NCBI RefSeq assembly: GCF_004369205.1
Contig: NZ_QFGA01000002.1
Location: 868,001 to 932,000 of the forward strand
Reading direction: 5' to 3'
DNA from: Pelotomaculum schinkii
GTDB taxonomy: Bacteria; Bacillota; Desulfotomaculia; Desulfotomaculales; Pelotomaculaceae
DNA length: 64,000 nucleotides
This document shows, piece after piece, positions 9,063-62,100 of the stretch. Numbering within the stretch: position 1 is the stretch's first letter; every line of letters begins with the position of its first letter. The notes beneath the pieces were generated by a model. The model saw nothing but the letters and a program-made list of their open reading frames with translations. It was not told the DNA's origin and did not search any database. A program made the translations under genes and the position numbers.

Positions 9063-9153
9063 ATCTTTAGCAACCAGGCTATCGTATCGCTCTGCAGCGA
9101 CTTAGATCCTTGGCTTTGCGTCCCTGCTTTTCAGCAAGTTTGCCCTTCAAGTC
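9063..9153 (-). ncRNA. Cyclic di-GMP-I riboswitch aptamer (GEMM-I)
   Basis: Read on the minus strand, the segment carries the GEMM-I core in order: GGGCAAAC, a stem CUUGCU/AGCAGG capped by a GAAA tetraloop, the invariant GGGACGCAAAGCC, a second stem-loop (UCGCU/AGCGA), and the closing AGCCUGGUUGC. The GNRA loop, the GACGCAAAGCC segment and the AGCC-N-GGUU receptor side match the class I c-di-GMP aptamer known from Vc2-type RNAs. It ends about 60 bases before the start codon of the 85-residue membrane protein, in the same orientation. Confidence 0.88.
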
Positions 9154-9375
9154 CATATATATGCTTTTTACTGATTATATGGCTAAAATGACTTCCTTGT
9201 CAAGCATTGTCGTACAGATGTGGTTTTGGTCGACTTTCATTTTACATGACTGCCGTCCTTGAAAATATTTCATGCTTTTTTACGACAAATCCCAAAGGAT
9301 TAAGTAACCTACTGTAGAAGTTATTTAGCTTGGCATAAAACCAACCGACAATATATGCAAAAGAGGTCGCCATAC

Positions 9376-46294: not shown

Positions 46295-48210
46295 GCTGGA
46301 AAGACGTTGTTTACGGAAATCCGGGTGATAAGGTCCTCATCAACGGCAACGACGCCATCGCCCGGGGGTGCCTGGAAGCGGGGGTTCGCTATGCTTCTTC
46401 TTACCCCGGCTCTCCTTCCTCAGAGATCACGGAAACACTGGGCAAGGCGATAGCCGCCTTTGACCTTTACGCGGAGTGGTCGACCAACGAAATCGTAGCC
46501 CTGGAAGGGGCGGCGGCAGCTTCTTTTACGGGCTTAAGGGCAGTCTGCACCATGAAGTCGGACGGCCTGAACGTGGCCCTGGATTTTCTCACCAGCATGA
46601 ACCTCGCCGGCTGCAAGGGCGGCCTGGTCCTGGTGGTGGCCGACGATCCCGCGGCGCACTCCAGCCTTAAAGAACACGATTCCCGCAACCTCGCCAGGGC
46701 CGCCCAGATACCGGTGCTTGAACCCTCCACCCCGGATGAGGCCAGGGTTATGGCCGCTTGGGCTTTTGCTCTTTCCGAAGAGACTGGCGGGCCGGTTATC
46801 TTGCGCTCGGTTACCAGGGTGTCCCATTCCCGCGGCATCGTGGAACTCAAAGAAATCGAAGGAACTCAAAAAACGGCAGAAATTCCACCGGGGCAGCGAT
46901 TTCAGACCTTCTCCATATTTCATATGAAGGCCAGGGACAGGCTGCAGTTCGCCGCCGATATATACGAAACAAGCCCCTTCAACTTTTTTGAAGGGCCGCA
47001 AGAAGCGAAGACTGTGCTATTTTGCTGCGGCTCCAGTTATCTTTACGCGCGGGAAACGCTCAAACTGCTGAACTTAACCGGGGAAGTGAAATTGGTCAGG
47101 GTGGGTACCACCTACCCCTTGCCTGAAAACTTCATCCTGTCCCATTTACGGGGCGCCGGGCAGGTCATCTTTGCTGAAGAAGTACGCCCGGTACTGGAAG
47201 AAAGCGTCCTGCTTTTATATGCAAGAAAAGCGGCTGACCTGGGGAACATCACCTTTCACGGCAAGCTGTCCGGTGAGGTGGCCGGTGTGCGCGGCCCTGC
47301 CTGCGGCGAGATGAATACGGACATTCTCCTTGAAGCGCTGGCCAAAATAACAGGGGTCGAGTACCCCAAACCAGGCTACCCGGCTAAACTGCTGGACCAA
47401 CTGGTAGAAAAGATCCCGCCCAGAGACTTCGCCATGTGTCCCGGCTGCCCGCACCGGGCGTCCTTCTGGGCAATCAAGACCGCGGTGGCTGTGGACGGAC
47501 GGGACGGCATTATCAATGGAGATATCGGCTGCTACAGTCTGGGCGCTTTCACCACCGGGTTTGAGCTGTTCGACACCCTCCACTGCATGGGCGCAGGACC
47601 CGGTATCGCCTGCGGTTTGGGCAAGCTGAAGAAGTTCGGTTTCAACAGGCCCGCGATCGCGGTGGTAGGTGACTCCACCTTCTACCACGCCGTCATCCCC
47701 GGCCTGATCAACGCCCGCTACAACGGCTCCGAATTCCTTTGCATCGTTCTGGACAACGGAGCGACCGCCATGACCGGACACCAGCCCCACCCGGGCACGG
47801 GCTTCAACGCCGCCGGCGATGCCGCGGAAGCCCTGTCCATTGAGGAAGTGGTACGGGGTCTCGGCATCGCGGTGGATGTAAGCGATCCTTTTAATATAGA
47901 AGAAACGGCAGGGAAGATTTTTGCCATGAACCGCCTGCCCGGTGTAAAGGTGCTGATTTTACGGCAGCTTTGTGCCCTGGTGGCGTACCGCAGGGAACGG
48001 AAAAAACGGCGTGTTACCGTGGACCCGGAGCGGTGCCGGGGCGAGTCCTGCGGCTGCGGCCGCTTCTGCACTAGCGTCTGGGGCTGCCCGGGGAACATCT
48101 GGGACACCGCGGCCGGCAAGGCCAAAATAGATGAAGCGGTGTGCGCGGGGTGCGGCGTGTGCGCTAAACTCTGCCCTGCCGGAGCAATTGCCGTCGAGGA
48201 GGTGGATTAG
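46291..48210 (+). CDS. iorA: Indolepyruvate:ferredoxin oxidoreductase alpha subunit
   Basis: 639-residue subunit. Thiamine diphosphate/2-oxoacid part: ASSYPGSPSSEITETL, EIVALEGAAAASFTGLRAVCTMKSDGLNVA in the first 110 residues, PGCPHRASFWAIKT, GDIGCYSLGAF and GDSTFYHAVIPGLINARYNGS (TPP motif). The C-terminal 50 residues carry cysteines: CRGESCGCGRFCTSVWGCP and CAGCGVCAKLCPAGA for [4Fe-4S] clusters. It oxidises aryl pyruvates from aromatic amino acids to aryl-acetyl-CoA and reduces ferredoxin. GAGGCGGGGAAG before the ATG. The beta subunit follows immediately. Confidence 0.93.
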   Translation: MSWKDVVYGNPGDKVLINGNDAIARGCLEAGVRYASSYPGSPSSEITETLGKAIAAFDLYAEWSTNEIVALEGAAAASFTGLRAVCTMKSDGLNVALDFLTSMNLAGCKGGLVLVVADDPAAHSSLKEHDSRNLARAAQIPVLEPSTPDEARVMAAWAFALSEETGGPVILRSVTRVSHSRGIVELKEIEGTQKTAEIPPGQRFQTFSIFHMKARDRLQFAADIYETSPFNFFEGPQEAKTVLFCCGSSYLYARETLKLLNLTGEVKLVRVGTTYPLPENFILSHLRGAGQVIFAEEVRPVLEESVLLLYARKAADLGNITFHGKLSGEVAGVRGPACGEMNTDILLEALAKITGVEYPKPGYPAKLLDQLVEKIPPRDFAMCPGCPHRASFWAIKTAVAVDGRDGIINGDIGCYSLGAFTTGFELFDTLHCMGAGPGIACGLGKLKKFGFNRPAIAVVGDSTFYHAVIPGLINARYNGSEFLCIVLDNGATAMTGHQPHPGTGFNAAGDAAEALSIEEVVRGLGIAVDVSDPFNIEETAGKIFAMNRLPGVKVLILRQLCALVAYRRERKKRRVTVDPERCRGESCGCGRFCTSVWGCPGNIWDTAAGKAKIDEAVCAGCGVCAKLCPAGAIAVEEVD

Positions 48211-48834
48211 GTGAAAGACCCGTTAAATATTGTGATCACAGGCGTGGGCGGTCAGGGGAACATCCTGGTTTCGGAAATTCTGGCCAAGGCCGCTGCGGCT
48301 GAAGGCTTCAAAGTTACAGTGGGTGAATCTTACGGGCTGTCCCAGCGCGGCGGAGCGGTATCCAGCCACATCCGTCTCTCGCAGGAATTCCAATACGGCG
48401 CGGTAATACCGGCCGGCCACGCTGATATCATCGTGGGTTTTGAACCGGTGGAAGCGGCCCGGTCCGCGGCCGCGCTGGGCCACCCGGGTACAAAGATCAT
48501 TTTAAACCCGCGCCCGGTTTACCCGGTGGGTGTCCTGACCGGCGGGCATGCTTATCCTGACCCTGATGAGTTGATTAAGACCTTAAAAGATATGTCCGCG
48601 CAGGTTTTACTCATTGAGAGCAGTGAGCTGGCAGCTTTAGCCGGAGATCCCGTGGTCCAGAATATTGTGATGGTCGGCGCCCTGGCCGGTTCCGGCTACC
48701 TGCCGCTGTCACCGGCGACCTTTACCTCCGTCATTAACACCGTAGTGCCTGAAAGAGCTTTGGAAATGAATGAGCGGGCCTTTCAACTGGGGTTTGACGC
48801 GGCCTGCGCTATAAAAGTTTCACAGGAAAAATAA
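48211..48834 (+). CDS. iorB: Indolepyruvate:ferredoxin oxidoreductase beta subunit
   Basis: 207-residue gamma-type domain of 2-oxoacid:acceptor oxidoreductases: VITGVGGQGNILVSEILAKAAAAEG at the start, VGESYGLSQRGGAVSSHIRLS and DIIVGFEPVEAAR, as in IorB. It follows iorA directly with a GTG behind GGAGGTGGATTAG. IorA and IorB form the heterodimer; the FrhB-like gene upstream completes the operon. The proteins act in amino-acid fermentation or in the reverse, ferredoxin-driven synthesis of aromatic 2-oxoacids. Confidence 0.92.
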   Translation: MKDPLNIVITGVGGQGNILVSEILAKAAAAEGFKVTVGESYGLSQRGGAVSSHIRLSQEFQYGAVIPAGHADIIVGFEPVEAARSAAALGHPGTKIILNPRPVYPVGVLTGGHAYPDPDELIKTLKDMSAQVLLIESSELAALAGDPVVQNIVMVGALAGSGYLPLSPATFTSVINTVVPERALEMNERAFQLGFDAACAIKVSQEK

Positions 48835-48854
48835 CGAGGATTGGGGGATTATAA

Positions 48855-49346
48855 ATGTCATATTCTTTTGCTCCGCTCAATGATGAATATAGGAAGCCTG
48901 TTATCGATATTTTTAATTACTACATTGAAAACAGTTTTGCAGCTTTTCCCGAACAAAAACTAAGTTATAATTACTTTGACATGCTCCTCAATGCTACTGC
49001 CGGTTATCCAGCAATTGTTGCTGAAACTGAGGATGGGGAGGTTATTGGTTTTGCCTTGCTGCGTCCCTATCATCCAATGCCGGTCTTTAAAAGGGTTGCT
49101 GAAGTAACTTATTTTATTAAACCCGAACATACCGGGAAAGGGATCGGCCGTTCAATGCTGGAATACTTATCTGTAGAGGCCCAAAAGATTGGTATTGATT
49201 CGATCCTGGCATGCATATCCTCACTGAATGAAAATAGTTTAAACTTTCATCACCGGAATGGTTTCCAGCATTCCGGCACACTGTATAACATAGGTAGAAA
49301 ATTCAACCGGGACTTCAGCGTTCATTTAATGCAAAAAACCATTTGA
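48855..49346 (+). CDS. GNAT acetyltransferase (phosphinothricin-acetyltransferase type)
   Basis: 163-residue N-acetyltransferase with AEVTYFIKPEHTGKGIGRSMLEYL (motif A with the GKGIG pyrophosphate loop), ILACISSLNENSLNFHHRNGF and the N-terminal Y(Y/N)IENSFAAFPEQKLSY of the PAT/MddA group. It begins 20 bases after iorB with GAGGATTGGGGG upstream and may be cotranscribed. Members acetylate phosphinothricin, methionine sulfoximine or related amino-acid analogues. Confidence 0.85.
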   Translation: MSYSFAPLNDEYRKPVIDIFNYYIENSFAAFPEQKLSYNYFDMLLNATAGYPAIVAETEDGEVIGFALLRPYHPMPVFKRVAEVTYFIKPEHTGKGIGRSMLEYLSVEAQKIGIDSILACISSLNENSLNFHHRNGFQHSGTLYNIGRKFNRDFSVHLMQKTI

Positions 49347-49375
49347 CCGGTATCATATGAACCATGATTATTAAT

Positions 49376-49426
49376 CACAAGGGATTCGTTGCATTCCCTT
49401 GGGGTCTTGTGCGAATGTATTCGCAC
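49376..49426 (+). ncRNA. Stacked hairpins downstream of the GNAT gene (3' UTR or small RNA)
   Basis: CAAGGGA (49378) pairs with TCCCTTG (49395); CACAAG (49376) can pair with CTTGTG (49406). The latter overlaps a perfect hairpin GTGCGAAT-GT-ATTCGCAC (49409-49426). Only one of the last two can form, giving two alternative folds. No known riboswitch core was recognised. Confidence 0.35.
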
Positions 49427-49460
49427 CGACATTTTTCGTATTAACAAAGATAGATCAAAG

Positions 49461-49484
49461 GGCAGGCTTCAAGCCTGCCTTTTT
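49461..49484 (+). terminator. Rho-independent terminator
   Basis: GGCAGGCTT and its complement AAGCCTGCC flank one central C, followed by six T residues broken only after position 49485. It closes the IorAB-GNAT transcript or a small RNA that starts upstream. Confidence 0.82.
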
Positions 49485-49648
49485 ACTTATGTTTTCATCC
49501 TTCAATTAAGCTTTGTCACGACGTGCAATAATTGTCGAATTGAGTATCTAAATGTTTTTATTCAGGCAGCAGGATTATCATATTAATTATTAGAAGCAAT
49601 AACACTTATTGTCACTGTATTAAAAATTTGTCTAAACGAGGGTGTTAT

Positions 49649-50842
49649 ATGCTGCCACATCAACACTGCCAAATTCTAATGATAGGCGGCGGTACAGCCG
49701 GCCTCATAGTAGCCTCAAAATTAATCAAAAAGCTGCCTGCGGCCAGTATTGTCCTGCTCGACTCCGCCGACAAACACTATTACCAACCAGCATGGCTGTT
49801 TGCCAGTTCCGGAATTATGGCAAAAGAAAAGTCGGCCAGGAGCGAAAAATCACTGATCCCCAACGGGGTTCTTTTCCTGCAGGAAGCGGCAGAATTGTGT
49901 AATCCCGATGAAAATTATGTAATTACCAGCCAGGGCAAGAGAATCTTTTATGATTACCTGGCGCTTGCCCCGGGTATAACAGTCGATTGGGCCGGGGTTA
50001 AGGGGTTGGAGGGTTCTATCGGCAAAGATGGCGTTGTAAGCATATATTCCTATGAACAGCTGGATCAAACCTGGCAATCAATAAAAAATTTTCCGGGCGG
50101 CGCCGCTGTTTTTACTCTGCCCGCCACCCCGCTAAAATGCCCCTCGGCTCCGCAAAAAATAATGTACCTGGCGGAGGAATATTTTCACAAAACCGGTGTA
50201 CGCAAGGATACCAACGTCATTTTTTTTACTGCCAAGGATAAGCTCTGTGAAATAAAAAAGTATGAAAGTACTCTCAAAAAAGTCATAGAAAGAAAAAATA
50301 TCAAGATTTTCTTTAAGCATGACTTGGAGGAAGTTCGTCCTGACAAAAAAGAGGCAGTTTTCAAATCCCTGGTTACGGGAAGTAAAGAAACAATCAAATA
50401 TGACTTGTTACATGTAACACCCTGCTTTCAGGCCCCGGTATTCTTGAAAAAAAGCCGGCTGACACAAAAAAACGGGTTGGTTGACGTTAACCCGTACACG
50501 CTGCAACATCAACGCTACAAAAACATTTTTGCCCTGGGTGACGCTGCGGATTTGCCCACCCCAAAGACGGGGGCGGCGGCCCGGCGACAAGCCAAGGTGG
50601 TTGCCGAAAACTTAATCCGCTTACTCTCTTCCGGGCAACCCGGCGCAAGCTACAACGGCTATACTTCCTGCCCCATTACAACCGGCTATGGCAAAGTTGT
50701 GCTCCTGGAGTATGACTATGATAAAAAGCCGCTGGAGACCTTTCCTTTTAACCAGGCAAAAGAGAGATACAGCATGTTTTTACTTGACCGGTATGTATTG
50801 CCTTATATGTACTGGAATTTCATGCTTCCCGGAAGAATATGA
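49649..50842 (+). CDS. Sulfide:quinone reductase-like FAD oxidoreductase
   Basis: 397-residue flavoprotein of the SQR/FCSD type. N-terminal FAD motif QILMIGGGTAGLIVASKLIKK, a cysteine loop TLPATPLKCPSAPQKIMYLAE whose cysteine is one of the redox-active pair in SQR, AGALGDAAD-like FALGDAADLPTPKTGAAARRQA (FAD binding), and the C-terminal cysteine in GYTSCPITTGYGKVVLLEY that completes the pair. The last part (PYMYWNFMLPGR) is the membrane-associating tail. It oxidises sulfide to polysulfur or a related thiol and reduces quinone. ATG 49649 behind CGAGGG. Confidence 0.85.
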   Translation: MLPHQHCQILMIGGGTAGLIVASKLIKKLPAASIVLLDSADKHYYQPAWLFASSGIMAKEKSARSEKSLIPNGVLFLQEAAELCNPDENYVITSQGKRIFYDYLALAPGITVDWAGVKGLEGSIGKDGVVSIYSYEQLDQTWQSIKNFPGGAAVFTLPATPLKCPSAPQKIMYLAEEYFHKTGVRKDTNVIFFTAKDKLCEIKKYESTLKKVIERKNIKIFFKHDLEEVRPDKKEAVFKSLVTGSKETIKYDLLHVTPCFQAPVFLKKSRLTQKNGLVDVNPYTLQHQRYKNIFALGDAADLPTPKTGAAARRQAKVVAENLIRLLSSGQPGASYNGYTSCPITTGYGKVVLLEYDYDKKPLETFPFNQAKERYSMFLLDRYVLPYMYWNFMLPGRI

Positions 50843-50890
50843 CATTACTTATGATTATGATTGCCCGTTATTTAACTCGCAAGCGGACTG

Positions 50891-51637
50891 CTACAGCACG
50901 TCGTTTCTACTGATCCTGACCATTTGACCGCCGTTATTAAATATCTCCATCCTACCGCCTTCCTGCACGGTGCGCCAAAACCCGGAAGGCTCAACTACAA
51001 CCAACCCGGCTAGCGTTTCAACACCGTACTTGAAGAAGATCGGCGACAATGGCGTACTGGGACCCACCAACACGGTCACGGCCCCGCGGCTTAACTCCAG
51101 CAGGCGGGGCAGGGTCTTGTTGATAAGAGATGTGGCGGTAATAAAGACAAAGTCCTGTTCACCCAACAGATATTCACAGGCTGGATCCGGAAAGTCACCG
51201 GGGTTTGGGTTGCGTTCCAAAATAGAAAACTGAGACACCTTGGCCAGCTCTTCCAAGCCGGGGAAGTGTCCGACCACGGCCACTTTTTTGCCCCGCACCT
51301 GCTCTATGTAGTGGGAAAAAGCGTTAGCATGTTCTTGAAAGGTCAAAGGATGACCAAGCAGCTTGGCGAGTTGCTCGGGCGTATTGAACGCCGCATTGAT
51401 TGCCGCTAAGCCAACCATCGCCCTCAAGTTGTTCCAGGATTTTATATTTGACGCCAGCTCACGGAGGGAAACACCGGTAATTTTACCAAGGTTCAGGCGA
51501 CCGGGCTCCTTGCGCATGGTCAGCGACACTCCCACCCCTCCGGAGCGGACCAAGGTCCAATACAGGCCGATCATACATTCAGTTGCCACCAGATCTTCCG
51601 GCACTGCCGCAATTAACTCGTCATAGATTTCCCACAT
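50891..51637 (-). CDS. DUF364/DUF4213-like putative metal-chelate-binding protein
   Basis: 248-residue protein. The N-terminal half with YWTLVRSGGVGVSLTMRKEPG resembles DUF4213, and the C-terminal half with Rossmann-like strands (KVAVVGHFPGLEELA, DFVFITATSLINKTLPRLLELSRGAV, GPSTPLSPIFFKYGVETLAG) resembles DUF364, described as a heavy-metal chelation-associated fold. No catalytic residues can be named. ATG 51637 follows GGAGA. It is the last gene of the eight-gene minus-strand operon. The ABC transporter at the head of that operon suggests it binds or releases the imported chelate. Confidence 0.75.
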   Translation of the reverse strand: MWEIYDELIAAVPEDLVATECMIGLYWTLVRSGGVGVSLTMRKEPGRLNLGKITGVSLRELASNIKSWNNLRAMVGLAAINAAFNTPEQLAKLLGHPLTFQEHANAFSHYIEQVRGKKVAVVGHFPGLEELAKVSQFSILERNPNPGDFPDPACEYLLGEQDFVFITATSLINKTLPRLLELSRGAVTVLVGPSTPLSPIFFKYGVETLAGLVVVEPSGFWRTVQEGGRMEIFNNGGQMVRISRNDVL

Positions 51638-51660
51638 TGCAAATTCTCCAATCTGACACT

Positions 51661-52206
51661 TTATATCCGCTTATAATAGGCCTCCCCGGCACAAGCGCGA
51701 CACAGCACCCTGCCCTTAACCTTTTTTTCTCTTCCGTCCATAATACGCTCACGACAGTTCTCGCACTCGATCTTCAGGAGGGGCTTACCGGGCAAATCTT
51801 CCTTCGGTATATCCATAGATACATCCTGCACAGTAAAAACATCCGAATCCGGTATGTCCCTCCAAAACAACAAAGGATCTTCTCCGGGCGGCGGAAAATT
51901 ACTGCCGGTAACAACCACCCTTACGCCCTGTTTTGTGGCCAAATCATAAAAAGTGGCCGCCATCTTGCCGTAGTCAACCCATTTCATGCGCCTCCTTCCC
52001 AGAGTACAGCCTGTTACCGCGTAAACAGCATCACTGACACAGCGGTCAACCTCGACATAAACAATTAAGTCCCTATATTCCAACGGGTTGTCAATTTTCA
52101 GCCTGTCAAGGGCCAGGTGGGCCATCCTTACGCCCAGTACGATTCCTGAACAGACATGTCCATGGTAATCAACTGCCACTTGTATATCCTCTGCCAAAGT
52201 GCGCAT
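51661..52206 (-). CDS. FmdE-family protein with C-terminal zinc ribbon
   Basis: 181 residues. The FmdE domain is shown by VDYHGHVCSGIVLGVRMAHLAL (HGHxC), VYVEVDRCVSDAVYAVTGCTLGRRR, then a substrate-binding cysteine pair. A C-terminal CENCRERI...CRACAGEAYYKR zinc ribbon completes the usual architecture. FmdE was first seen with Mo/W formylmethanofuran dehydrogenases, but free-standing forms are linked to metal or corrinoid/tetrapyrrole trafficking. ATG 52206 is preferred over a TTG three codons upstream that overlaps the stop of the previous gene (ATTGAG). Confidence 0.82.
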   Translation of the reverse strand: MRTLAEDIQVAVDYHGHVCSGIVLGVRMAHLALDRLKIDNPLEYRDLIVYVEVDRCVSDAVYAVTGCTLGRRRMKWVDYGKMAATFYDLATKQGVRVVVTGSNFPPPGEDPLLFWRDIPDSDVFTVQDVSMDIPKEDLPGKPLLKIECENCRERIMDGREKKVKGRVLCRACAGEAYYKRI

Positions 52207-52211
52207 GCTAC

Positions 52212-53015
52212 TCAATCCTTCCTTTCTTTTACTTCCAGGATATCCGCATCGGAAAGCGCCAAGAAATCTCCCTTCTCCAGCAGCTGCCGCGCTGTAATAA
52301 TCAGAACTTTTCCCCCGCGGCGCCAGGTCGTGCGTCCTAGTGATGCGTCCGGGCGGTATGTAAAGCGGGGCGGGTTAGCCAGTCTGGCTCTGGACAGCCC
52401 CTGGATGGTGTCGGCCAGGCAAGGCGATCCTTCCACCGTAACATAGAGGTCAGGAGAATTCAGTTGCCCCAGCCGCTCTGTTGCAATCAGGGACATGCGC
52501 ACTGCCAGCAGGAGATCAATACATTCCTCCTGGTGGTGCGCCAGGGCCTGTTTCAATAATATGCTCCTGTGCATCTCCCTATTTAACGGATAAATATGGG
52601 GCGTGCGCGGTGAAAAGATAATGTCATCTTCGAAGTACGGCTTGATATCCAGCACCGGTGTCCCGTCCACCGCGTCTAATCCAGTGACATATAGTCGCCT
52701 TCCCTCCACCCGGTCCAGTGTTACCAGGCTCAGGCCAATAGGGTTGGGGCGCGCCGGCGAGCGGAGCCCGAAAACACCGTACTCCGGCAGGTGATGATTT
52801 AACCTGCAGGGGGCGGCGGTCAGAGCGCGGCGATCCATTAGGTGAAACCAGCTCAAGATCCAAAAGTGCGAGTGTTCTCTAATCCTCAGGAGCGCTTCCT
52901 CATATTCCGGGTAGATCTCTATTGCAGCTTTTTCATGCGTATCAGAAGGCCGCTTGGGATCAGAATAACGGGATATCACAATGCCGATGGGCTTAAGGAC
53001 AATGTTTGCCGGCAA
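52212..53015 (-). CDS. TrmO-type domain fused to an FmdE-like domain
   Basis: 267 residues. Residues 5-140 match TrmO/TsaA-like tRNA t6A methyltransferases: KPIGIVISRYSD, HSHFWILSWFHLM, and the diagnostic FGLRSPARPNPIGLSLVTL. The second half (HHQEECIDLLLAVRMSLIATERLGQ, VTVEGSPCLADTIQGLSRARLANPPRF) aligns in outline with the FmdE domain of the next gene, including the acidic cysteine segment. Fusion to FmdE suggests this TrmO-like part no longer acts on tRNA and instead transfers or modifies a cofactor. TTG 53015 behind AAGGGGGG overlaps the previous gene by 40 bases. Confidence 0.72.
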   Translation of the reverse strand: MPANIVLKPIGIVISRYSDPKRPSDTHEKAAIEIYPEYEEALLRIREHSHFWILSWFHLMDRRALTAAPCRLNHHLPEYGVFGLRSPARPNPIGLSLVTLDRVEGRRLYVTGLDAVDGTPVLDIKPYFEDDIIFSPRTPHIYPLNREMHRSILLKQALAHHQEECIDLLLAVRMSLIATERLGQLNSPDLYVTVEGSPCLADTIQGLSRARLANPPRFTYRPDASLGRTTWRRGGKVLIITARQLLEKGDFLALSDADILEVKERKD

Positions 53016-54826
53016 GTCTCGCCCCCCTTTTTTAACATCTCCGGTTGTGTGTCCCACTTAAAGCTGCAGCTGGGCTTGCCAAAGGAGAGGTTGGTATCAG
53101 ACAATGAAAACTCCATTCCGTAAAACTTATCATAGAACACCTTCGCTTCAGCAAGCACATCAAAATGAAATATGCCGGGATGGATGATGTTGGCTATAAA
53201 CATCAGGCCCAGCACCCACCGGGGGCTGCCGAAGTCCCAGCAGGGCGCCGGTAAATTATATATCCTTTTATTCTTTACTGCCTCCACATCTAAGCAGGCT
53301 TTGAGGCATTCTTCGTAAAAATCATCAACCGGTGAAGACATAAAAGACGAGATGAAAATAATTTCAGGATTGAGCGCTTCCAGCTGCTCAAGGGTAATCG
53401 ACATGCCCGGTCGCCCTTCGCAGTCTATTTCCCTGTTGACACTGGTACCGCCTGCCGTTTCTACCAGCTGGTTTTCCAGGCGGCCTCCCTTGATGCAAAA
53501 ATTGGGTTTTCCCATGGCGTAATACACCCGTGGTTTCCTGTCTACTGTACGCAGGCCGCTCTCAATGAGCAACAATTTTTCTTCCAAATACTTAGCCAGC
53601 GCTTCAGCTTTATCCTCTAACCCAATAAGGCCGCCAAAATGCCGGATGGTTTTGATATATGCCCGGGGAGTCCGGATGTCATCGTGAAATTTACCCAGGT
53701 TGTTGTTGCAAAGCACATCCTCCCAAATTCGCACAACCTTTTGTTGCTCCCTTACCCCCATAGCAATTAGTATAGCTTCCATCATTTCCAAAGCCCTGGT
53801 AAAAGGGTATCCCCCCTGAAAATCTCCTTCCTGGTAAACTTTTTTTGCCACAAATCCCTTAATATTTAACTCACGCCCGCATCGCGGGCAGCAATTTTTT
53901 TCACCCAACCCAAGTCCTGCAGGCTTAAGTTTTGCCCCCATCGGCCCGTAGAAATCCCGTTTTAATATCAACTCACCGCAGCCGGGACATAATGTGTTAA
54001 GATATTCGGCCCCGGGGGAATTAAATAAATACACATAATTTAGTTTTTCTCTGAGCATGTCCCGCAGGCCTTCGGCCTTGCGTATTGATTCCTCTAAAGC
54101 CAGTTCGGCTCCCTCCACAGGTATAAACCTCATCACCTGCAATGGTATATCTGCTGAAATATTTGCCAGGTAATCAGCCAGAATAAGGATCTCTTGATTA
54201 TGCCCCTTGCTGCAAATACAGGATACTTCCACATGCACACCGCTCTGGTAAAACCTTTCGATGTTCCTCAAAACCGGCGCCGGCGTGTCCCCTCCACATC
54301 TGCTATAAGCCTCTCCGGACATCCCCTTCACACCTATATTGACAAAATCAAGGAGCTTAATGATTTTGTCCAAGGATGCTTCGGTAAAATAACCGTTGGA
54401 GGAACAGCCAACCAGAAGGCCGCGCGCTTTGGCAGCTTCAGCAACATTGATAAAGGTTAGAAAGGACGCCAAGGGGTCGTTCATTAAAAAGGTAATTCCG
54501 ATACAATCGTTTCTGACGGCCTCGTCCACGACCTGCTCCGGGGACAGATGATGAAACGCCCGGCTGGCCGGATCCATTTCCTTGACAATGGCTGCTGAAA
54601 TACAGCCATCGCAATTAAAATTACAGCCAGCCGTACTAATCTGGAGGAATTTTCCTCCCGGATAAAAGTGCAATAAAGGCATTGTTTCTATGGAAATAGG
54701 ACAGATAATCAGGTACCTGTCCGGATACAGCTCTACGATTTCCCGCCCTATTCTGCTGTATAGCCCGCATGCGCCCGTACCCGCTTCCGGCAGCAGGCAG
54801 CCCCTTTCACAAATATTACAACGCAT
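52976..54826 (-). CDS. Radical SAM protein fused to a solute-binding-protein-like domain
   Basis: 616-residue two-part protein. Residues 1-280 are an AmmeMemoRadiSam/PflA-like radical SAM domain: cysteine cluster MRCNICERGCLLPEAGTGACG, then the SAM cluster STAGCNFNCDGCIS (CxxxCxxC), GLLVGCSSNGYF and GVKGMSGEAY. CPGCGELILKRDF and CCPRCGREL add a zinc site. From about residue 370 on the sequence matches FecB/MolA-type binding proteins (MSITLEQLEALNPEIIFISS) with a C-terminal tail (GLMFIANIIHPGIFHFDVLAEAKVFYDKFYG) that resembles the adjacent lipoprotein SBP. There is no signal peptide, so this domain is cytoplasmic. ATG follows AGGAGAGAGGCTA. Confidence 0.82.
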   Translation of the reverse strand: MRCNICERGCLLPEAGTGACGLYSRIGREIVELYPDRYLIICPISIETMPLLHFYPGGKFLQISTAGCNFNCDGCISAAIVKEMDPASRAFHHLSPEQVVDEAVRNDCIGITFLMNDPLASFLTFINVAEAAKARGLLVGCSSNGYFTEASLDKIIKLLDFVNIGVKGMSGEAYSRCGGDTPAPVLRNIERFYQSGVHVEVSCICSKGHNQEILILADYLANISADIPLQVMRFIPVEGAELALEESIRKAEGLRDMLREKLNYVYLFNSPGAEYLNTLCPGCGELILKRDFYGPMGAKLKPAGLGLGEKNCCPRCGRELNIKGFVAKKVYQEGDFQGGYPFTRALEMMEAILIAMGVREQQKVVRIWEDVLCNNNLGKFHDDIRTPRAYIKTIRHFGGLIGLEDKAEALAKYLEEKLLLIESGLRTVDRKPRVYYAMGKPNFCIKGGRLENQLVETAGGTSVNREIDCEGRPGMSITLEQLEALNPEIIFISSFMSSPVDDFYEECLKACLDVEAVKNKRIYNLPAPCWDFGSPRWVLGLMFIANIIHPGIFHFDVLAEAKVFYDKFYGMEFSLSDTNLSFGKPSCSFKWDTQPEMLKKGGETCRQTLSLSPSAL

Positions 54827-55445
54827 TAGCCTCTCTCCTTATGGTTACCCATAAACCTGTTTCATTTCTGGCCGCATCATAGGAGGGTATGCCCGACTGC
54901 TGCAATGCGCTTCTATAACGCGCCAGGTTATCATCACTATTATGATTTTTCGTCCTGCCCCGCCATTCCAGGTCTCTTCTCCGCATCTCGGCAGCCACCT
55001 GCTCTTTGAGTTCATTTGAGCCAAAGCCGCCGCCAATAAAAGCTATACCACCCGGCTTGAGCACCCGGTATATTTCCTGGAAAGCCTTGCAGTGGTCTTT
55101 CCAAAAAAACACCGACCCCCGGCTCATGGCCAGGTCAATCGACCCATCTTCCAGGGGGATCTCCTGGACATCCCCCCAAAGGGTCTGCACCTTGTCTTGC
55201 ACACCCCGGCTGACAATGTTTTGGGAGGCTATTTGCAGCATTTCCTGCGACTGGTCAAACAAATAAACCTTAAAATCCGTAATCCCGGCCATTGCGATGC
55301 CCAGATAGCCACCGCCACAGCCAATATCCAGGCATGTCCCCCTGGCCTTGCCTGATTTTTCTTTAATTTGAGATGCAAGGACCGGATAAACCGGAGCAAA
55401 CACCTCCCGGGCGATTTTATCGAACTCCGGCACGTTCATTTCCAT
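54816..55445 (-). CDS. Class I SAM-dependent methyltransferase of the metal-uptake operon
   Basis: 209 residues, SAM motif I TCLDIGCGGGYLGIAMAG, acidic LFDQSQEMLQIASQN, motif II GSIDLAMSRGSVFFWKDH and LKPGGIAFIGGG. Compact fold without extra domains. It overlaps the radical SAM gene by 11 bases and lies between the transporter and processing genes, so its substrate is probably the transported ligand or a metal-binding cofactor. Confidence 0.83.
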   Translation of the reverse strand: MEMNVPEFDKIAREVFAPVYPVLASQIKEKSGKARGTCLDIGCGGGYLGIAMAGITDFKVYLFDQSQEMLQIASQNIVSRGVQDKVQTLWGDVQEIPLEDGSIDLAMSRGSVFFWKDHCKAFQEIYRVLKPGGIAFIGGGFGSNELKEQVAAEMRRRDLEWRGRTKNHNSDDNLARYRSALQQSGIPSYDAARNETGLWVTIRREANAL

Positions 55446-55540
55446 TAATCTACACCCCCAAATACTGCTCTCTTTTCATGCAAGGTTCATGCTTGCGCCG
55501 AGCGTCGGACAATAATCGAAGTTTGAAGATGGATTACTAG

Positions 55541-56641
55541 TTAATTTACTGTTAGCCCTGAATTCTTCAGCAATTCCCTGGCGTCAGCATCCGATAGATC
55601 AACATGATAGAACAACGAATAAAAATTCTTTACTTCGCTGACCATATCCACCTTATAAATATCCGGGTATAGGGTTGCCGCCAGCCATTTCAAGCCCAGG
55701 AACCGGTTGACCGAAGGCGGACGATCAAACCAGTTGAACGGGTAATTCGGTATCTCATATACTTTATTGTTTTTAACGGCATTGATATTTGCCCAATCCT
55801 GGCTTGTCCGGATAAGATCATAAGCGCCTCCGGCATCCGCGCCCCAGGCCAAAATGACATCAGGATTCCATTTTAAGACTTGTTCCATGGATACACTGCT
55901 CATGCCGCTGCCGCCTTTGGCCTCAACTTGAGCAACGTTATTTCCATTGACCAGATCAAGAACAAGGGCATGGCTTCCGCCCTTAGGCTCTGTGGCAAGT
56001 CCTTTGGGCCCTTCGGCATAATATACTTTTGCTCTCTTTTCTTCAGGTATTGCTTGAGTTGCTTCCGTAACCTCATTCATAGTCTTATTGCAATAAGACG
56101 CAAGTTCTTTAGCCTTGTCTCCAACTCCGAGGAGCTGTCCAATAAAAGTATAAGCCTTTTCCGTACTCTTGATATCCCCGTCCACAACAATCACCGGAAT
56201 GTTAAGCTGTTCCTGGAGTTTGTCCGCGTCACTTTTTGTGGTATCGGTAAGGGCATCGGGTCCAACTGCGAATATGACATCCGGTTTGGCCTTAAGCAGT
56301 TCTTCGGTGTTAATCTTACCGTTCATTTGCAATCCACCCAGGAAGGGAAGAGAGTGATATTTGTCAGGTATGTATTTCTTTTCTTTATCCGTTAACTGCA
56401 TAGACCATCCAACCATCTTATCCGGAGCAAGGGAATAGATCATGATCATACCCAGAGGGCTTGTATAATAGCACTTATTGATTTGGGTAGGAATGGTTAC
56501 CGACCTTCCGGCATGATCGGTAATGGTTTGTGTCGTCGATTGCTGGGATACGCTCTTGTCGCCACAACCCGTAAAAAGGCTACAGATCATGACTGAAAGG
56601 ATGAACAGAAAAGCAATTGCAAAATTCCTGGTCTTTATCAT
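55541..56641 (-). CDS. ABC transporter substrate-binding lipoprotein (FecB/MolA-like)
   Basis: 366-residue lipoprotein with signal peptide and lipobox LFTGCG near residue 25. Mature part: TQTITDHAGRSVTIPTQINKC, LLKAKPDVIFAVGPDAL, a helix linker, PEEKRAKVYYAEGPKGLATEP, WNPDVILAWGADAG and PNYPFNWFDRPPSVNRFLG. The latter motif is seen in anaerobe FecB-type proteins that bind ferric or oxyanion-type metal complexes. The tail LKWLAATLYPDIYKVDM resembles the cytoplasmic SBP-like domain downstream. ATG 56641 has AAGGGG at nine bases; an earlier ATG (56650) is too close to the SD. Confidence 0.88.
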   Translation of the reverse strand: MIKTRNFAIAFLFILSVMICSLFTGCGDKSVSQQSTTQTITDHAGRSVTIPTQINKCYYTSPLGMIMIYSLAPDKMVGWSMQLTDKEKKYIPDKYHSLPFLGGLQMNGKINTEELLKAKPDVIFAVGPDALTDTTKSDADKLQEQLNIPVIVVDGDIKSTEKAYTFIGQLLGVGDKAKELASYCNKTMNEVTEATQAIPEEKRAKVYYAEGPKGLATEPKGGSHALVLDLVNGNNVAQVEAKGGSGMSSVSMEQVLKWNPDVILAWGADAGGAYDLIRTSQDWANINAVKNNKVYEIPNYPFNWFDRPPSVNRFLGLKWLAATLYPDIYKVDMVSEVKNFYSLFYHVDLSDADARELLKNSGLTVN

Positions 56642-56722
56642 TTCGCACATCACCCCTTTAGAATTTTCTAACAAAGTTAAGCTAAGCTGTTGCCCTGAAT
56701 GCATGGCAAGCAAGCACTTTGG

Positions 56723-57535
56723 CTACGCGCTCATACAAATCTCTGAAGGCTTAGGGACAGGAACGCAAACACAGATTGTTCTCTCATCCGGCAGCTTGAA
56801 CTTACCAATTCTCACCTCCGTATCATACATATCTCTCATCGAGTCTTCAGAAATCACATCTTGGGGGAGACCAATCTTTAATAATCTGCCTTTTTTTAGA
56901 GTTACCACTTTATCGGCACAGAAAAGCGCATGCCCCGGATCATGAGTGACCATCAGGATGCTTATTCCTTTCCGGGAAAGCAGTCGCACATGTTCAAGCA
57001 CGACATTCTGCTTACCAAAATCCAGGCTTATTGTGGGTTCATCCATAATCAGTATTTTTGGTTGCTGCGCCAAAGCCCGCGCAATCAGGACCAGCTGTCT
57101 TTCCCCACCGCTGAGCTTGGTATAAATTTTATCTTTTAAGTGAGTAATGTTTAGTTTGGCTAAAGACTCATAGGCAATTTCTTCGTCTTTTTTATTTGGC
57201 AGGGCGAGGCTGGATAAATGAGCCGTCCTTCCCATAAGGACAACGTCGAAAACCTTATAGGGGAAAGGCGGGGTATGCGCTTGCGGAATATAGCCCATCA
57301 CTTGAGCCAGTTTCTTAGGAGATAATTTTTGCACGTCTTCACCATCGATCCGGACGGAACCGGCAGAAGGGGTCAACAGTCCGAGGATATTTTTAAGCAG
57401 GGTCGTCTTGCCACAGCCGTTTGGACCCAACACACACACCAGTTCACCTGCTTCAACCATGAAAGAGATCTCATGAAGTATTCTGCTTTGGTCATAGCAA
57501 TAAGAAACACTCTCAACTTCCAGCACTACTTCCAT
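56723..57535 (-). CDS. FecE-type ABC transporter ATPase
   Basis: 270 residues. Walker A GPNGCGKTT near residues 38-46, Q-loop in YIPQAHTPPFPYKV, signature LSGGERQ, Walker B ILIMDEPTISLD and H-loop VTHDPGHA are all intact. The start used is the ATG; a GTG three codons in (57526) behind AAGGGG overlaps the permease stop as TAGTG and may be the true start. It follows the permease and precedes the binding protein gene on the same transcript. Confidence 0.9.
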   Translation of the reverse strand: MEVVLEVESVSYCYDQSRILHEISFMVEAGELVCVLGPNGCGKTTLLKNILGLLTPSAGSVRIDGEDVQKLSPKKLAQVMGYIPQAHTPPFPYKVFDVVLMGRTAHLSSLALPNKKDEEIAYESLAKLNITHLKDKIYTKLSGGERQLVLIARALAQQPKILIMDEPTISLDFGKQNVVLEHVRLLSRKGISILMVTHDPGHALFCADKVVTLKKGRLLKIGLPQDVISEDSMRDMYDTEVRIGKFKLPDERTICVCVPVPKPSEICMSA

Positions 57536-58524
57536 CCCCTTACATTTTTTTTAAAAATAAAGATAAAGAAGGGCACACCGATTAAGGAGGTGAGAATACC
57601 CAGGGGGACCTCGACTGAACCAAGGCAGCGGGCCACATCATCAATCAGCAATAAATAAGTTGCGCCGACGATAAACGTCACCGGCATGAGAACTCTATAG
57701 TTGGGACCGACGATGGCACGGGCCAGGTGGGGAATAACCAGGCCGATCCATCCGACCATGCCACAGATGGAGACTGATGCGGCTGTCACCAAAGTCGAAC
57801 TGATAATGACAATTAACCTGAGTTTTTTGGTATTAATCCCAAGCGCCCGGGCCTCTTCTTCGCCGAACGCAAGCACATTTAATCTCCACCGGACAAGAAA
57901 AAGGGAGGTGAAGCCTATCAACATAGGGATTAAAACCATTATGAGATCCCTTTTATTCACAGAAGATAGACTCCCCATCAGCCAGAAGGTAATGGCCGGG
58001 AGTTTATCGTTGGCATCGGCAAAATACTTCAATACCCCTGTACCTGAGGAAAAAAGAGTACTAATGAGGATTCCGCCAAGTACCAGACCCAGTATGGGGT
58101 CATAATCCAGTTTGACATTGATCAAATAGGCCAAAAACACAGCGGCAAGTCCGAAAAGAAAGGCCGAAACCTGAATGATCAACCCGGATTGTGAAAGATA
58201 AATCGCCAGGCAAGCTCCAAATCCGGCACCCGCTGAAGCGCCTAAAATATCCGGGGAGACCAAAGGATTTTTGAACATCCCTTGATAGGCCGCCCCTGCT
58301 GTAGACAAGGCTGCCCCTACCAGCATACCGGCAAAAATACGCGGCAACCTGATATTAAAGACGACAGTTTCCAGATTCGTTTCCATTACGCTGCCAAAAT
58401 AATGGCCGTATAAGGTTAACATGAGCTGCGGGATTGAAATGGCATAACGTCCAATTGCAAAGGAAAATAAAAAGGCTGTGACCGGCAGTAAAATCAGGAT
58501 TAATTTCTTCAGCGATGAATGCAT
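57526..58524 (-). CDS. FecCD-type ABC transporter permease
   Basis: 332 residues with about ten hydrophobic helices. Family motifs: LPRIFAGMLVGAALSTAGAAYQ, NPLVSPDILGASAGAGFG, CGMVGWIGLVIPHLARAIVGPNYR and DDVARCLGSVEVPLGILTSLIGVPFF. It is the first gene of the eight-gene operon; the ATG has only a weak RBS. About 240 bases of leader separate it from the terminator of the upstream giant gene. Confidence 0.9.
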   Translation of the reverse strand: MHSSLKKLILILLPVTAFLFSFAIGRYAISIPQLMLTLYGHYFGSVMETNLETVVFNIRLPRIFAGMLVGAALSTAGAAYQGMFKNPLVSPDILGASAGAGFGACLAIYLSQSGLIIQVSAFLFGLAAVFLAYLINVKLDYDPILGLVLGGILISTLFSSGTGVLKYFADANDKLPAITFWLMGSLSSVNKRDLIMVLIPMLIGFTSLFLVRWRLNVLAFGEEEARALGINTKKLRLIVIISSTLVTAASVSICGMVGWIGLVIPHLARAIVGPNYRVLMPVTFIVGATYLLLIDDVARCLGSVEVPLGILTSLIGVPFFIFIFKKNVRGWK

Positions 58525-58581
58525 ATTTTCTGTCCACCATATGGTAATACTTCATCTTGAATTTATTAGCTCTAAAAATTT

Positions 58582-58750
58582 TTATAGCTTTCTTTTACTC
58601 ATAAAAGCACCAGTCCGTTGATATTTTACAGCCTGAATTGCGGCCGCCACAGCCAAGGCGATCCCGGCCGTCCTTTTGCCTCCAAGACCAAGCTCTAATG
58701 GGATGTATTCTGTCGATAAGTTTCTCTGATATGTTGAGCGGCTCCAAATA
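58582..58750 (-). pseudogene. Protein remnant (about 55 codons, no start codon)
   Basis: An open frame reads LSTEYIPLELGLGGKRTAG, then IALAVAAAIQAVKYQRTG and ends after FMSKRKL. It has the high-GC third-position pattern of real genes, unlike its surroundings, but no start or RBS. Probably the tail of a deleted gene; family not recognised. Confidence 0.35.
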
Positions 58751-58754
58751 CAAA

Positions 58755-58784
58755 TATAAAAAGCTGCACTAAGAGAGCGCAGCT
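58755..58784 (-). terminator. Terminator after the glucan synthase-like gene
   Basis: On the minus strand AGCTGC pairs with GCAGCT around an 11-base loop, followed by TTTTTATATTT. It lies about 330 bases after the stop codon of the upstream gene. Confidence 0.65.
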
Positions 58785-59117
58785 AAACGAACTCAATTCG
58801 TTTGAGTACTACCCCTTATTTTTTCTACATTTTTTCTCTTTGTTTTCGTTATGCATTCGAGACTCAAATAAACAAAACGAGGCAAAACAAAGCACCCTTT
58901 TGATTTGAATATCATGTTATATATATTATAGTATAGTTACGAGGCGATCCAGTGTCAAGAAGTAAAATGATTAGAAGCCACCCACCATTACAAAACGAAA
59001 TAAAACGCAATAACGGTTCACAGAAACCACACCGCGACCTCAAAGCCCCGGGACTCGTATCTGTGTGTATTGCGCTATGGGCATGCTCGCGAGCGAAAAT
59101 ATAACGAAGGGAGTTGA

Positions 59118-62100
59118 TTACAACACCAGCACGACCTGATGGACCTGCCCGTCGTCTCGCAATTCAACGTAACAGCCCTCCTTCAACTCTTGTTCCTGAA
59201 ACGCAGCTTCCCGCCCGTCAATTTGCAGTGCGGACGCTCCGCCGGACCGGCGCGACGGGTTTTTGACAGTAATCTGGTAACGTGCGCTGCCATAACGGTA
59301 GCTTACGGAAAACTCCCTCCATGCGCCGGGAATACAGGGGCAAATGTACAGCCGTTGGCCGCGGCGGCGCAGGCCGAGGATCCACTCCACTCCCGCCTGA
59401 TACATCCACCCTGCCGCGCCGGTATACCACGTCCAGCCGGCGCGTCCCCGGTGCGGCTCCACTGTGTAAACATCTGCCGCTATGACGTAGGGTTCGCCGC
59501 CGTACTGCCGCGCTTCATGAATCGTGCGCGTATGATTGAGCGGGTTTAACAGCTCAAACAATTCAAAAGCCTCTTCTCCCCTGCCAAGCCGGCACCAGGC
59601 GATAATGCTCCAGATGGCGCCGTGTGTATACTGGGCGCCGTTCTCCCGGATGCCGGGCGGATAACCCTGAATATAGCCCGGAGCCGGCTCCGTATGATCA
59701 AAAGGCGGCGTCAAGAGGCGCGCGACGGATAGTTCCCGGTCCACCAGTTCGCGGTCGAAGGATCGCATCGCCTGCAGCGCCTTCTCTTGCGGCGCCGCTC
59801 CGGAGATGACCGACCAGGACTGGGCAATGGCGTCGATGCGGCATTCCTCATTGTAAATAGAACCCAGCCAAAGGCCTTCGTCGGTGAAGGCGCGCCGGTA
59901 CCATTGCCCGTCCCAGGCGTGTTTTTCCAGTGAGGAGACCAGCTGGGCGCATACACCCCGGTAACGTTCCGCCCGCTCCAAATCGCCGCGCTGCCGGCAC
60001 AAACCTGCAAACCGGTTCAGCACGTCATAGAGGAACCAGCCGAGCCACACACTTTCGCCGCGACCCTTAGCGCCTACACGGCTCAAACCGTCGTTCCAAT
60101 CGCCGGTTCCGATCAGCGGCAGCCCGTGTTCACCGAAGCGTTGCAGCGCCCTGTCCATTGCGCGCAGGCAGTGCTCAAAAACAGAGCCGCTCTGGGTAGA
60201 GCCTTGCGTCGGCTCATAGCGTTCGGCTTCACCCTCCGGCAATGGTTCACTATATAGATACTGCGCCTCCTCGTCCAGTATACTGCCGTCCCCCGTATGC
60301 TCAACATAACGTCCAACGGTATACGGCAGCCACAGCAAATCATCGGAGAAACGCGTGCGGATGCCGCGCTGCGTCTCTTCATGCCACCAGTGCTGCACGT
60401 CTCCTTCCTGATATTGATGGGCGCAGTGCAGTAAAATTTGCTTTCTCACCAGGTCGGGGCGGGTGTGCAGGAGCGCCAGAGCATCCTGCAATTGATCGCG
60501 AAAGCCGTACGCGCCTCCCGCCTGGTAAAAAGCCGCTCGCGCCCACATTCTGCAGACCAGGGTCTGGTATAAAAGCCAGCCGTTTAACAGTACATCCAGC
60601 TCCGGGCTGGGTGTGACAACCTTAACCTGGTCCAAAACATCCTCCCAGAATGCCCGCACGTGTTCAAAGGCCTGGTCGCAAACACGAGGTTGGCGGTATT
60701 TTTGCGCCAGCTGCACGGCTGCCTCCCGGGAATGTTCGCAACCGAGCAGGATGTATAATGTCCGTTCGCCGCCGGGCTCCAGGATGAGCTTGGACTGCAC
60801 CGCGCCGCAGGCGTCATAAAGAGCTCCGGTTTGGCCTGACAGGCGCTCCCGGCTCAAAGCCGCGGGACTTTCCAGGGTTCCGTTGCGGCCGAGAAATTCG
60901 TTTCGGTCTGCCGTCCAGGACAGATCGTATACCCCGGTGGAATTCTGATCCTCTTGCGGATAAGCGCCTAAAAAGGCATGCGCTCCTCGAAATGTTTCCT
61001 GATATGCGTTGCGCGCCAGCATGGTTTGGGCCTCTTCATCCCACTCGGTGATGATGAAAGATGCGCCTCCCTGGCGACGCACACCCAACACCCACTCCGC
61101 ATAATAAGTGATGGAAAGGCTCCTTCGCCCGGCGCTTCTGTTTTGCAATTGCAATTTGACCACCTTGACCGGGTCGTCAAGGGGCACAAAAACGGTCATT
61201 TCCTCCCATACACCGTGTCTCTCGTGACCAAAGCAGGTGAAGCCGCGGCCGTGGGTAACGGTGTAAGGCTGGTCTTTGGCTGCGGTAGACGGCGTGGCGG
61301 ACCATAGTTCACCGCTCTCTTCGTCCCTCAGATAACACGCCTCACCCGGCGGGTCTAGTACAGGATCGTTTGACCAGGGAGTCAGCTTAAACTCACGGCT
61401 GTTTCGCCACCAGGTGTAACCCATACCGAGTTCTGAAACCAGACAGCCAAAACGCGGATTGGCGATGACGTTGCTCCATGGCGCAGGCAGGTAATTGCCG
61501 TTTTTGAGCAAGATCTGATACTCCCGGCCGTCCGCCGTAAATCCACCCCAACCGTTAAAGAACAGCAGCCGGCGCTCCTCTTCCGGGATAGGCGCGGCAA
61601 ACCTGTTTAACGGCGCTGCCGGAGTGAAGGGGGACGGTAAGACGTCAGCCCGCCGGGGCAGTCTGGACTGCGCCCTGAGGCTGGGGCCGTCTGCCCGCAA
61701 AACAACACGGGCTGTTGCCATGAGAAGCGTTCTGTCCTCCTCCGGAAGCTGGCCGGCATTGATGATAAAGACACCGCCGGCTCCGGCGCAATGACGGTCA
61801 ACGCCATGCTCCACCGCCCGCCGCAGGGTTTCCTGCAAATCCTGTTGGTAACCACCCGCCGATTCGTTTAAAATGACCAGGTCGAAAAACAACCCAAGGC
61901 GGCGTAAATACTCGTGACCGGTCAAGAGTTTGACTAAAAACTGCATATTGGCCCGGTCCTTAATCCTTACCAGGAGCACCGGAATATCTCCGGAAATTCC
62001 ATGCGCCCAGAGGCCGGACTGCCCTTTTACGTTGACGGTGATACCTAGCTTTCGCTCCTGACTCAGCGGCGGGGTATATAATATCCGGCCCGCCAGCGTT

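Follow-up and report, generated by a model that had tools for sequence, protein, structure and literature searches.

A radical SAM enzyme joined to a binding-protein lobe in a conserved importer module with a possible role in molybdenum or tungsten uptake

Nitrogen fixation, methanogenesis and the metabolism of formate and aldehydes require molybdenum (Mo) and tungsten (W). For the Haemophilus influenzae importer MolBCA (PDB 3psa/3psh for its binding protein MolA), we know of no radical S-adenosylmethionine (SAM), methyltransferase, FmdE or DUF364 partner, nor of a TonB receptor. MolA binds molybdate and tungstate (PMC4031551). The make-up of MolBCA, a FecCD-type permease, an ATPase and a homologous substrate-binding protein (SBP), recurs in a 64,000-nucleotide stretch of Pelotomaculum schinkii (GCF_004369205.1, contig NZ_QFGA01000002.1, positions 868,001 to 932,000), hereafter the window. 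There, eight same-strand genes at 50891-58524 form a predicted operon, in which a radical SAM enzyme is fused to the C-terminal lobe (C-lobe) of an SBP.

The ChuW/HutW enzymes, which are HemN-like and are not known to carry an SBP domain, resemble this system in outline, in that a metal complex is imported and opened by a radical SAM enzyme and the metal is freed. The likeness is one of analogy only, and ChuW/HutW differ in handling heme and iron, not Mo or W. Their role in anaerobic heme degradation is given in the available part of PMC10035031. The proximity of DUF364 and FmdE genes to metal transporters is already in print (PMC2954201, PMC2954224), and the available portions of these two papers mention neither a radical SAM-SBP fusion nor riboswitch control. 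The DUF364 structure paper (PMC2954201) suggested a condensing or hydrolysing role in the synthesis of pterins, flavins or siderophores. The importer type, FmdE, DUF364, TrmO and the riboswitch are of known kinds, and the fusion, its pairing and its Mo/W control appear to be new; no published description of the fusion or the module was found in a limited search that left subscription journals mostly outside.

The fusion protein and its conserved neighbourhood

The best 80 of 126 relatives of the fusion protein were analysed as loci. Of the 80, 78 passed a length filter, and 62 sequences remaining below 88% identity, with the window sequence in place of that of the same-genus locus L046, were used for the tree and the AlphaFold2 model. 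The cysteines of the CxxxCxxC motif (C68, C72 and C75) were invariant in the 62 sequences. The model (mean predicted local distance difference test score (pLDDT) 92.1, predicted template modelling score 0.90) contained a barrel, and its residues 33-267 matched the pyruvate formate-lyase (PFL) activating enzyme 3c8f with Z 19.3 and a root mean square deviation (rmsd) of 3.0 over 221 aligned residues. By both motif and barrel, the fusion belongs to the radical SAM superfamily.

The C-terminal part of the model matched SBPs, namely 4hn9 (Z 20.4, rmsd 2.7, 220 aligned), 4ovk (Z 18.3), MolA (3psa; Z 17.9, rmsd 2.9, 218 aligned) and H. pylori CeuE (Z 17.9); Z scores differing by no more than 1 were counted as tied. 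Only about 220 of the 300-330 residues of each binding protein aligned, which is consistent with the loss of much of the N-terminal lobe (N-lobe). No signal peptide was seen in the fusion on inspection by eye, and the half-receptor should therefore act inside the cell. The idea that the C-lobe is a copy of the operon's own SBP, with which it shares 29% identity, found no support, its best solved match in a separate search being 4ovk and not 4pag. A second FecCD-type binding-protein gene, recognised by its C-lobe match, lies elsewhere in the window at 1811-2308.

The nearest named family was TIGR04337, the radical SAM protein of the AmmeMemoRadiSam system, which scored 121.2 bits over residues 1-320, below its cut-off of 220 bits, and whose 349-position model stops short of the SBP C-lobe. 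The match to the window protein reached the C-lobe in all 80 relatives, extending to residue 582 or beyond except in one truncated contig, where it stopped at residue 556. Shorter radical SAM paralogues lacking the C-lobe were present in most related genomes. In the more distant genome G040, the SBP gene and a fusion-type radical SAM gene are separate and adjacent, next to genes which, named by eye, we take to resemble modABC. At L054 (13969-14970), 2 kb past a riboswitch, a radical SAM gene was observed whose product is about 62% identical to residues 1-327 of the window protein and lacks the C-lobe.

The loci came from Bacillota, Thermodesulfobacteriota, Myxococcota, Campylobacterota, Deferribacterota, Chlorobiota and Synergistota, one record labelled Pseudomonadota, and archaea of methanogen lineages; by record title, 26 were classed as outer-membrane, 25 as lacking an outer membrane and 29 as archaeal. 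Neighbours were counted in the 42 loci whose fusion gene has 6 kb or more of sequence on both sides, and names given by clustering (ModA, MoeA, TonB receptor, and the methyltransferase clusters f7 and f18) rest on Pfam or NCBIfam matches of representatives. Within 6 kb of the fusion, a permease gene was found in 30 of the 42 loci, an SBP gene in 34 and a methyltransferase gene in 33. Any importer gene was present in 39, a generous figure, with none in L068, L076 and L098. Since the ATPase and methyltransferase models can match unrelated proteins, we relied on the permease and SBP counts and on adjacency: in 47 of 80 loci, the methyltransferase gene ends no more than 60 nucleotides (nt) from the start of the radical SAM gene. 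Forty of the 80 loci had permease, ATPase, SBP and methyltransferase genes all within 6 kb. In a separate set of 100 genomes, eight, the window's own included, encoded a full-length fusion, and most others gave only a short radical SAM paralogue or SBP matches. The seven other fusion genomes had the importer adjacent in 7/7, the methyltransferase in 6/7, DUF364 in 4/7, a TrmO-FmdE-like gene in 3/7 and a stand-alone FmdE gene in 1/7.

Accordingly, a core of FecCD importer, methyltransferase and radical SAM-SBP fusion is conserved in archaea and in anaerobic bacteria from many phyla, and a chance neighbourhood was ruled out for it by the neighbour counts. A preliminary description of the window had proposed that chelate-type import is coupled to a methyltransferase and a radical SAM-SBP protein; this coupling holds across two domains of life, and the permease and SBP counts show that the radical SAM gene is not rarely placed beside the transporter. 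The same description had judged all eight genes too coupled to be accidental, a view that failed for the remainder of the set: within 6 kb, FmdE was found in 3 of 42 loci, TrmO in 5, and DUF364 in 10 (the window's type) and 1 (a second type). The co-occurrence of all eight families was complete within 6 kb only in L046, one of 80 loci, which rules out the eight-gene set as a fixed unit. From these frequencies, TrmO, FmdE and DUF364 are accessories.

Molybdenum and tungsten control in relatives

The Rfam scan covered 34 bacterial loci, with 29 archaeal and 17 bacterial loci outside it. Mo/W riboswitches (RF01055) or Moco-II RNAs were found in 11 of the 34, and in 7 of them the RNA lay 52-319 nt before a same-strand gene run reaching the fusion gene (RF01055 in L050, L059, L062, L064, L065 and L099, of which L064 and L065 are close relatives; Moco-II in L075). 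The Moco-II RNA of L078 was left uncertain because it lies 875 nt away with small open reading frames (ORFs) between. L053 has a riboswitch whose end lies about 220 nt ahead of the locus start. All three riboswitches of the L099 genome are inside the locus, preceding permease-ATPase-FmdE, DUF364-TonB receptor-methyltransferase-fusion, and XdhC-ModA gene runs, respectively. Among the 26 scanned loci whose genomes had RF01055 counts, 11 of 158 riboswitches fell inside the loci, against 0.83 expected (Poisson p 1.4e-9). According to the P3-stem rule of Regulski et al. (available part of PMC2408646), the riboswitches of L050, L054, L062 and L065 look like the molybdenum cofactor (Moco) type, and those of L059 and the three of L099 like the tungsten cofactor (Tuco) type. 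RF01055 was absent from the 8 archaeal genomes searched (9 loci).

A control was made in 8 genomes chosen because riboswitches lay inside the loci or close to them. In these, a same-strand RF01055 lay no more than 5 kb upstream of 7 of 10 radical SAM copies, against 0.063 expected, and one of the seven was a second fusion copy (C4 of G108, 42% identity) outside the selection. For FecCD permeases in the same genomes, the corresponding figure was 11 of 38 against 0.24 expected (27 without), and 8 of the 11 lay more than 8 kb from any fusion gene. Since riboswitches also precede unlinked permeases, the fusion is best seen as part of a wider Mo/W regulon of importers. Such fusion-unlinked, riboswitch-preceded permeases were observed in G101, G104, G108, G110 and G112.

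A ModE gene heads the run leading to the fusion in three Sulfurospirillum loci, identified by Pfam and NCBIfam in L084 and by clustering in the other two. The L084 protein has the Pfam domains HTH_1 and TOBE and scored 103.8 bits against ModE_repress (cut-off 98.5); with the full-length E. coli-type model it reached 181.8 of 369, below the cut-off. Using a box pattern based on the E. coli operator and fixed after the Sulfurospirillum sequences had been viewed, we found six ModE-like palindromes in the three loci, compared with a mean of 0.6 and a maximum of 4 in 200 shuffles. Single ModE-like boxes were also located just ahead of the L074 methyltransferase-fusion pair and of the L079 fusion gene.

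Of the 42 loci, 13 had scored Mo/W genes no more than 6 kb away. The named relative nearest in the tree is L047 (73% identical), whose module is flanked by a Mo oxidoreductase and MoeA genes on one side and by two ModA-type transporters, then a riboswitch, on the other. In L053, genes for NifH and for two proteins of nitrogenase component-1 type (6193-9902) separate the methyltransferase from the fusion. The window sequence paired with L047 (support 100/99) inside a 10-row clade (99/98) that contains the riboswitch-controlled Desulfosporosinus locus L050. The preliminary description had left the metal open; the riboswitch, ModE and Mo-gene evidence points most likely to Mo/W, and a link of the fusion family to these metals is very likely.

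Ligand, chemistry and competing explanations

The window importer combines a FecCD permease with a MolA-like SBP. By sequence search the SBP matched 4pag (E 3.1e-52) and MolA 3psa (E 9.8e-22), and the best solved matches of its AlphaFold2 model (pLDDT 92.1) were 4pag (Z 37.2), 4ovk (29.1) and 4hn9 (28.9), the last of which carries the title 'iron ABC transporter', followed by MolA (Z 26.2, rmsd 3.3, 298 aligned). Iron-bound YiuA (Z 23.7-24.7) and the CeuE proteins of H. pylori (23) and C. jejuni (19-20) ranked lower, and absences from the Foldseek listings were given no evidential weight. MolA was the top-ranked solved SBP whose title gives a tested Mo ligand, and the window importer may bind and transport molybdate or tungstate. 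PDB 4PAG is the SBP of Sulfurospirillum deleyianum, for which the search listings give neither ligand nor function. The module SBP of S. diekertiae, encoded in a ModE-radical SAM operon (L088:9677-10702), matched 4PAG with E 2.1e-193 over 324 residues, most of them identical in the alignment; 4PAG is thus very probably a solved structure of a module SBP.

TonB receptor genes were found within 6 kb in 12 of the 26 outer-membrane loci and in 0 of the 54 others. The two receptors tested resemble siderophore receptors, with scores below the cut-off, and ExbB-type genes lie near the module in two groups. ModA-type genes were present within 6 kb in 7 of 42 loci (identified by NCBIfam for L047). Plain oxyanions pass porins and ought to require no such receptors. 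Because TonB receptors accompany the module solely in outer-membrane organisms and ModABC-type genes sometimes lie beside it, the imported compound is probably a chelate.

We therefore favour, with a probability of about one half, the reading that the operon is a version of an anaerobic uptake-and-opening system for Mo/W compounds, chelates being the most likely. Import would rely on the SBP, FecCD permease and ATPase, with help from TonB receptors where an outer membrane is present. In the cytoplasm, the SBP C-lobe would let the radical SAM enzyme bind ligand of the kind imported, and the enzyme, together with the methyltransferase encoded next to it, would alter the organic moiety and thereby set the metal free. 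Optional helpers (FmdE, DUF364 and TrmO-like proteins) might bind or pass on the metal or the chelator, and Mo/W would proceed to cofactor synthesis. The evidence slightly favours action of the radical enzyme on the imported ligand; this action, the chelate substrate, the direction of the chemistry and a shared substrate for the riboswitch-less window copy are inferred. In its most specific form the proposal is tentative: an undescribed pathway of anaerobic bacteria and archaea, in which a radical SAM barrel has replaced the N-lobe of an SBP and the C-lobe presents a Mo/W chelate for radical cutting or remodelling, often under Moco/Tuco riboswitch or ModE control.

Several observations weigh against the uptake-and-opening reading, the exporter adaptors mentioned below among them. 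The fusion C-lobe is as near to other metal-chelate SBPs as to MolA. RF01055 was found in 21 of the 42 module-carrying genomes and missing from the other 21, and riboswitch control is not special to radical SAM-linked importers. Scored Mo/W genes lay within 6 kb in only 16 of all 80 loci and 2 of the 29 archaeal ones, and the loose ModE-box pattern occurred in 23 of 80 loci, mostly not preceding module genes. The window copy itself has no RF01055 within 48000-60000 (its genome has 19 elsewhere), and the Mo/W reading is therefore transferred to the window with moderate confidence only. Furthermore, L042 adjoins what we take, by eye, to be zinc-type ABC genes and a Fur-like gene, and in L087 a cobalamin riboswitch (4099-4285) lies downstream of the fusion gene. 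The lack of Mo/W RNA at the window operon, the latter two loci and the FecCD SBP fold, which is common to siderophore, heme and B12 proteins, would suit a general importer of iron, nickel, cobalt or corrinoid chelates with accessory enzymes, concerned with Mo/W only in some relatives. This is improbable in view of the repeated Mo/W regulation in separate clades, the window's own included, and of the scores below cut-off for the BtuC equivalogs (227.3 vs 461 and 178.4 vs 334 bits), BtuD (142.9 vs 281 bits) and the F420-0 transporter models.

The main rival is that the enzymes build a Mo/W chelator, a metallophore that is exported and reimported loaded; the radical SAM enzyme, methyltransferases and DUF364 would make it, joined in some cases by an HmdB-like radical SAM enzyme. 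Extra methyltransferases (f7 in 15 and f18 in 7 of 80 loci) agree with this, as do BioB/HmdB-like radical SAM genes in 4 of 80 loci (L050, L051, L054 and L059), two of which stand beside the fusion in L054 (5900-6913, nearest to HmdB with 140.5 bits, under the cut-off of 320.9; and 8291-9331). HlyD-type exporter adaptors near 4 of 80 loci (L048, L049, L071 and L076; one tested by Pfam) and the siderophore, pterin or flavin synthesis proposed for DUF364 (PMC2954201, available part) point the same way. However, among the 45 commonest neighbour clusters, no recurrent exporter beyond those 4 loci was seen by eye (with Pfam for some), nor, by eye, any ligase, nonribosomal peptide synthetase or polyketide synthase family, and the SBP C-lobe fits ligand capture; chelator synthesis is thus unlikely, though it is the strongest competitor. 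Somewhat less probable still, and ranked second, is import of plain molybdate or tungstate, as by MolBCA, with the radical SAM-SBP protein as a maturase or metallochaperone that would keep the oxyanion ready for building the cofactor. In favour of it, the solved MolA is closely related to the SBP, the radical SAM domain also resembles NifB (Z 16.7) and nitrogenase-type genes lie inside the L053 module, whereas the ModA-type genes already present near some loci and the TonB receptors that accompany the module speak against it.

Operon structure, accessory genes and implications

The eight genes, their strand and their families given in the preliminary description were all recovered (Table 1), each with a family match on the minus strand at 50891-58524. 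That description had also claimed four overlaps of 1-40 bases and a largest gap of about 95, in agreement with the junctions found: overlaps of 10 (permease/ATPase), 11 (methyltransferase/radical SAM), 40 (radical SAM/TrmO, from TTG 53015) and 4 bases (TrmO/FmdE, from TTG 52215; a 5-base gap if ATG 52206 is used), and gaps of 72, 95 and 23 bases at the remaining junctions. The ORF of TrmO-FmdE opens at 53057, and TTG 53015 was picked as the best start.

Table 1. Predicted features of the operon and its leader (window positions)
Feature	Position	Strand	Basis
FecCD-type ABC importer permease	57526..58524	-	PF01032 8.8e-81
Importer ATPase	56723..57535	-	PF00005 1e-34
Lipoprotein-like SBP	ORF 55541..56713, likely start 56650 or 56641	-	PF01497 5.1e-24
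Class I methyltransferase, small-molecule type (core gene)	54816..55445	-	PF08241 3.4e-22
Radical SAM enzyme-SBP C-lobe fusion	52976..54826	-	PF04055 1e-15, PF01497 1.4e-7
Radical SAM barrel, about fusion residues 31-269	54020..54736	-	PFL activating enzyme 3c8f match
SBP C-lobe and linking helices, about fusion residues 345-579	53090..53794	-	structural match 4hn9, 3psa
TrmO-FmdE fusion	52212..53015	-	PF01980 9.7e-32, PF02663 1.8e-5
FmdE core and C4 zinc finger (DksA/TraR-type)	51661..52215	-	PF02663 8.4e-31, PF01258 6.7e-7
DUF4213-DUF364 protein	50891..51637	-	PF04016 2e-41, PF13938 8.5e-17
Sigma-70-like promoter, TTGACA-17-TATACT	58958-58930	-	11/12 consensus positions
Terminator-like hairpin within leader	58784-58762	-	9-pair stem and T run

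An arsenic chemistry was dropped as an explanation for the methyltransferase, which scored 55.8 bits against the ArsM model (cut-off 263). The TrmO domain passed TIGR00104 (115.1 bits, cut-off 93.25). Its fusion to FmdE, together with a TrmO gene beside a ModA gene in L123, makes it possible that the window TrmO-FmdE acts on a substrate other than tRNA t6A37. In L123, the TrmO-family gene (8443-8988) has a ModA-type gene on one side and genes for an ABC permease and ATPase on the other, a hint that this 'tRNA methyltransferase' family may have a Mo role. PF02663 (cut-off 22.9) was passed by the FmdE gene product (107.2 bits) and by the truncated domain of TrmO-FmdE (25.2); the FmdE homologue of L041, at 21.1 bits, was slightly under it. 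Both DUF4213 (61.6 bits) and DUF364 (141.5 bits) scored above their cut-offs in the last protein of the operon. Known DUF364 (3l5o, E 8.8e-52) and FmdE (2gvi, 3d00 and 2glz) structures match the window proteins.

Among other neighbours, heavy-metal P-type ATPase genes were observed near five loci (L049:14069-16528 and L065:2368-4833, both tested; L064, L067 and L068, by clustering), and a CobW-type metallochaperone gene near a Sporomusa module (L056:2545-3249, PF02492 2e-12), with a clustered relative in L058.

The promoter listed in Table 1 ends 406 bases before the permease start. It was the best of 13 sites, a number near the shuffled mean of 11.1, and both of its hexamers are identical in the closest relative, L036. 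The leader hairpin is identical in L036 as well, which hints at attenuation, and the fold of the leader had z = -2.15. No Rfam match up to E 1 was obtained in 48000-60000, leader included, and a leader RF01055 was accordingly rejected. Among 41 genomes searched, the leader was recovered only in the same-genus G002, with a 28-base match in G035, and the idea of a leader motif common to the relatives was dropped on that basis. The long leader with its terminator-like hairpin is a possible new attenuator candidate.

No organic route of Mo/W uptake in strict anaerobes was found in the titles and abstract beginnings of the molybdophore, tungstophore and chelator literature. If the uptake-and-opening reading is true, a widespread importer and radical enzyme, regulated by riboswitches in several lineages, would supply such a route. 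It would also give functions to three under-studied families, the radical SAM-SBP fusion, FmdE and DUF364, and a clue to the actual cargo of MolA-type proteins. Since the probable module SBP has already been crystallised (4PAG), the proposal would be directly testable.

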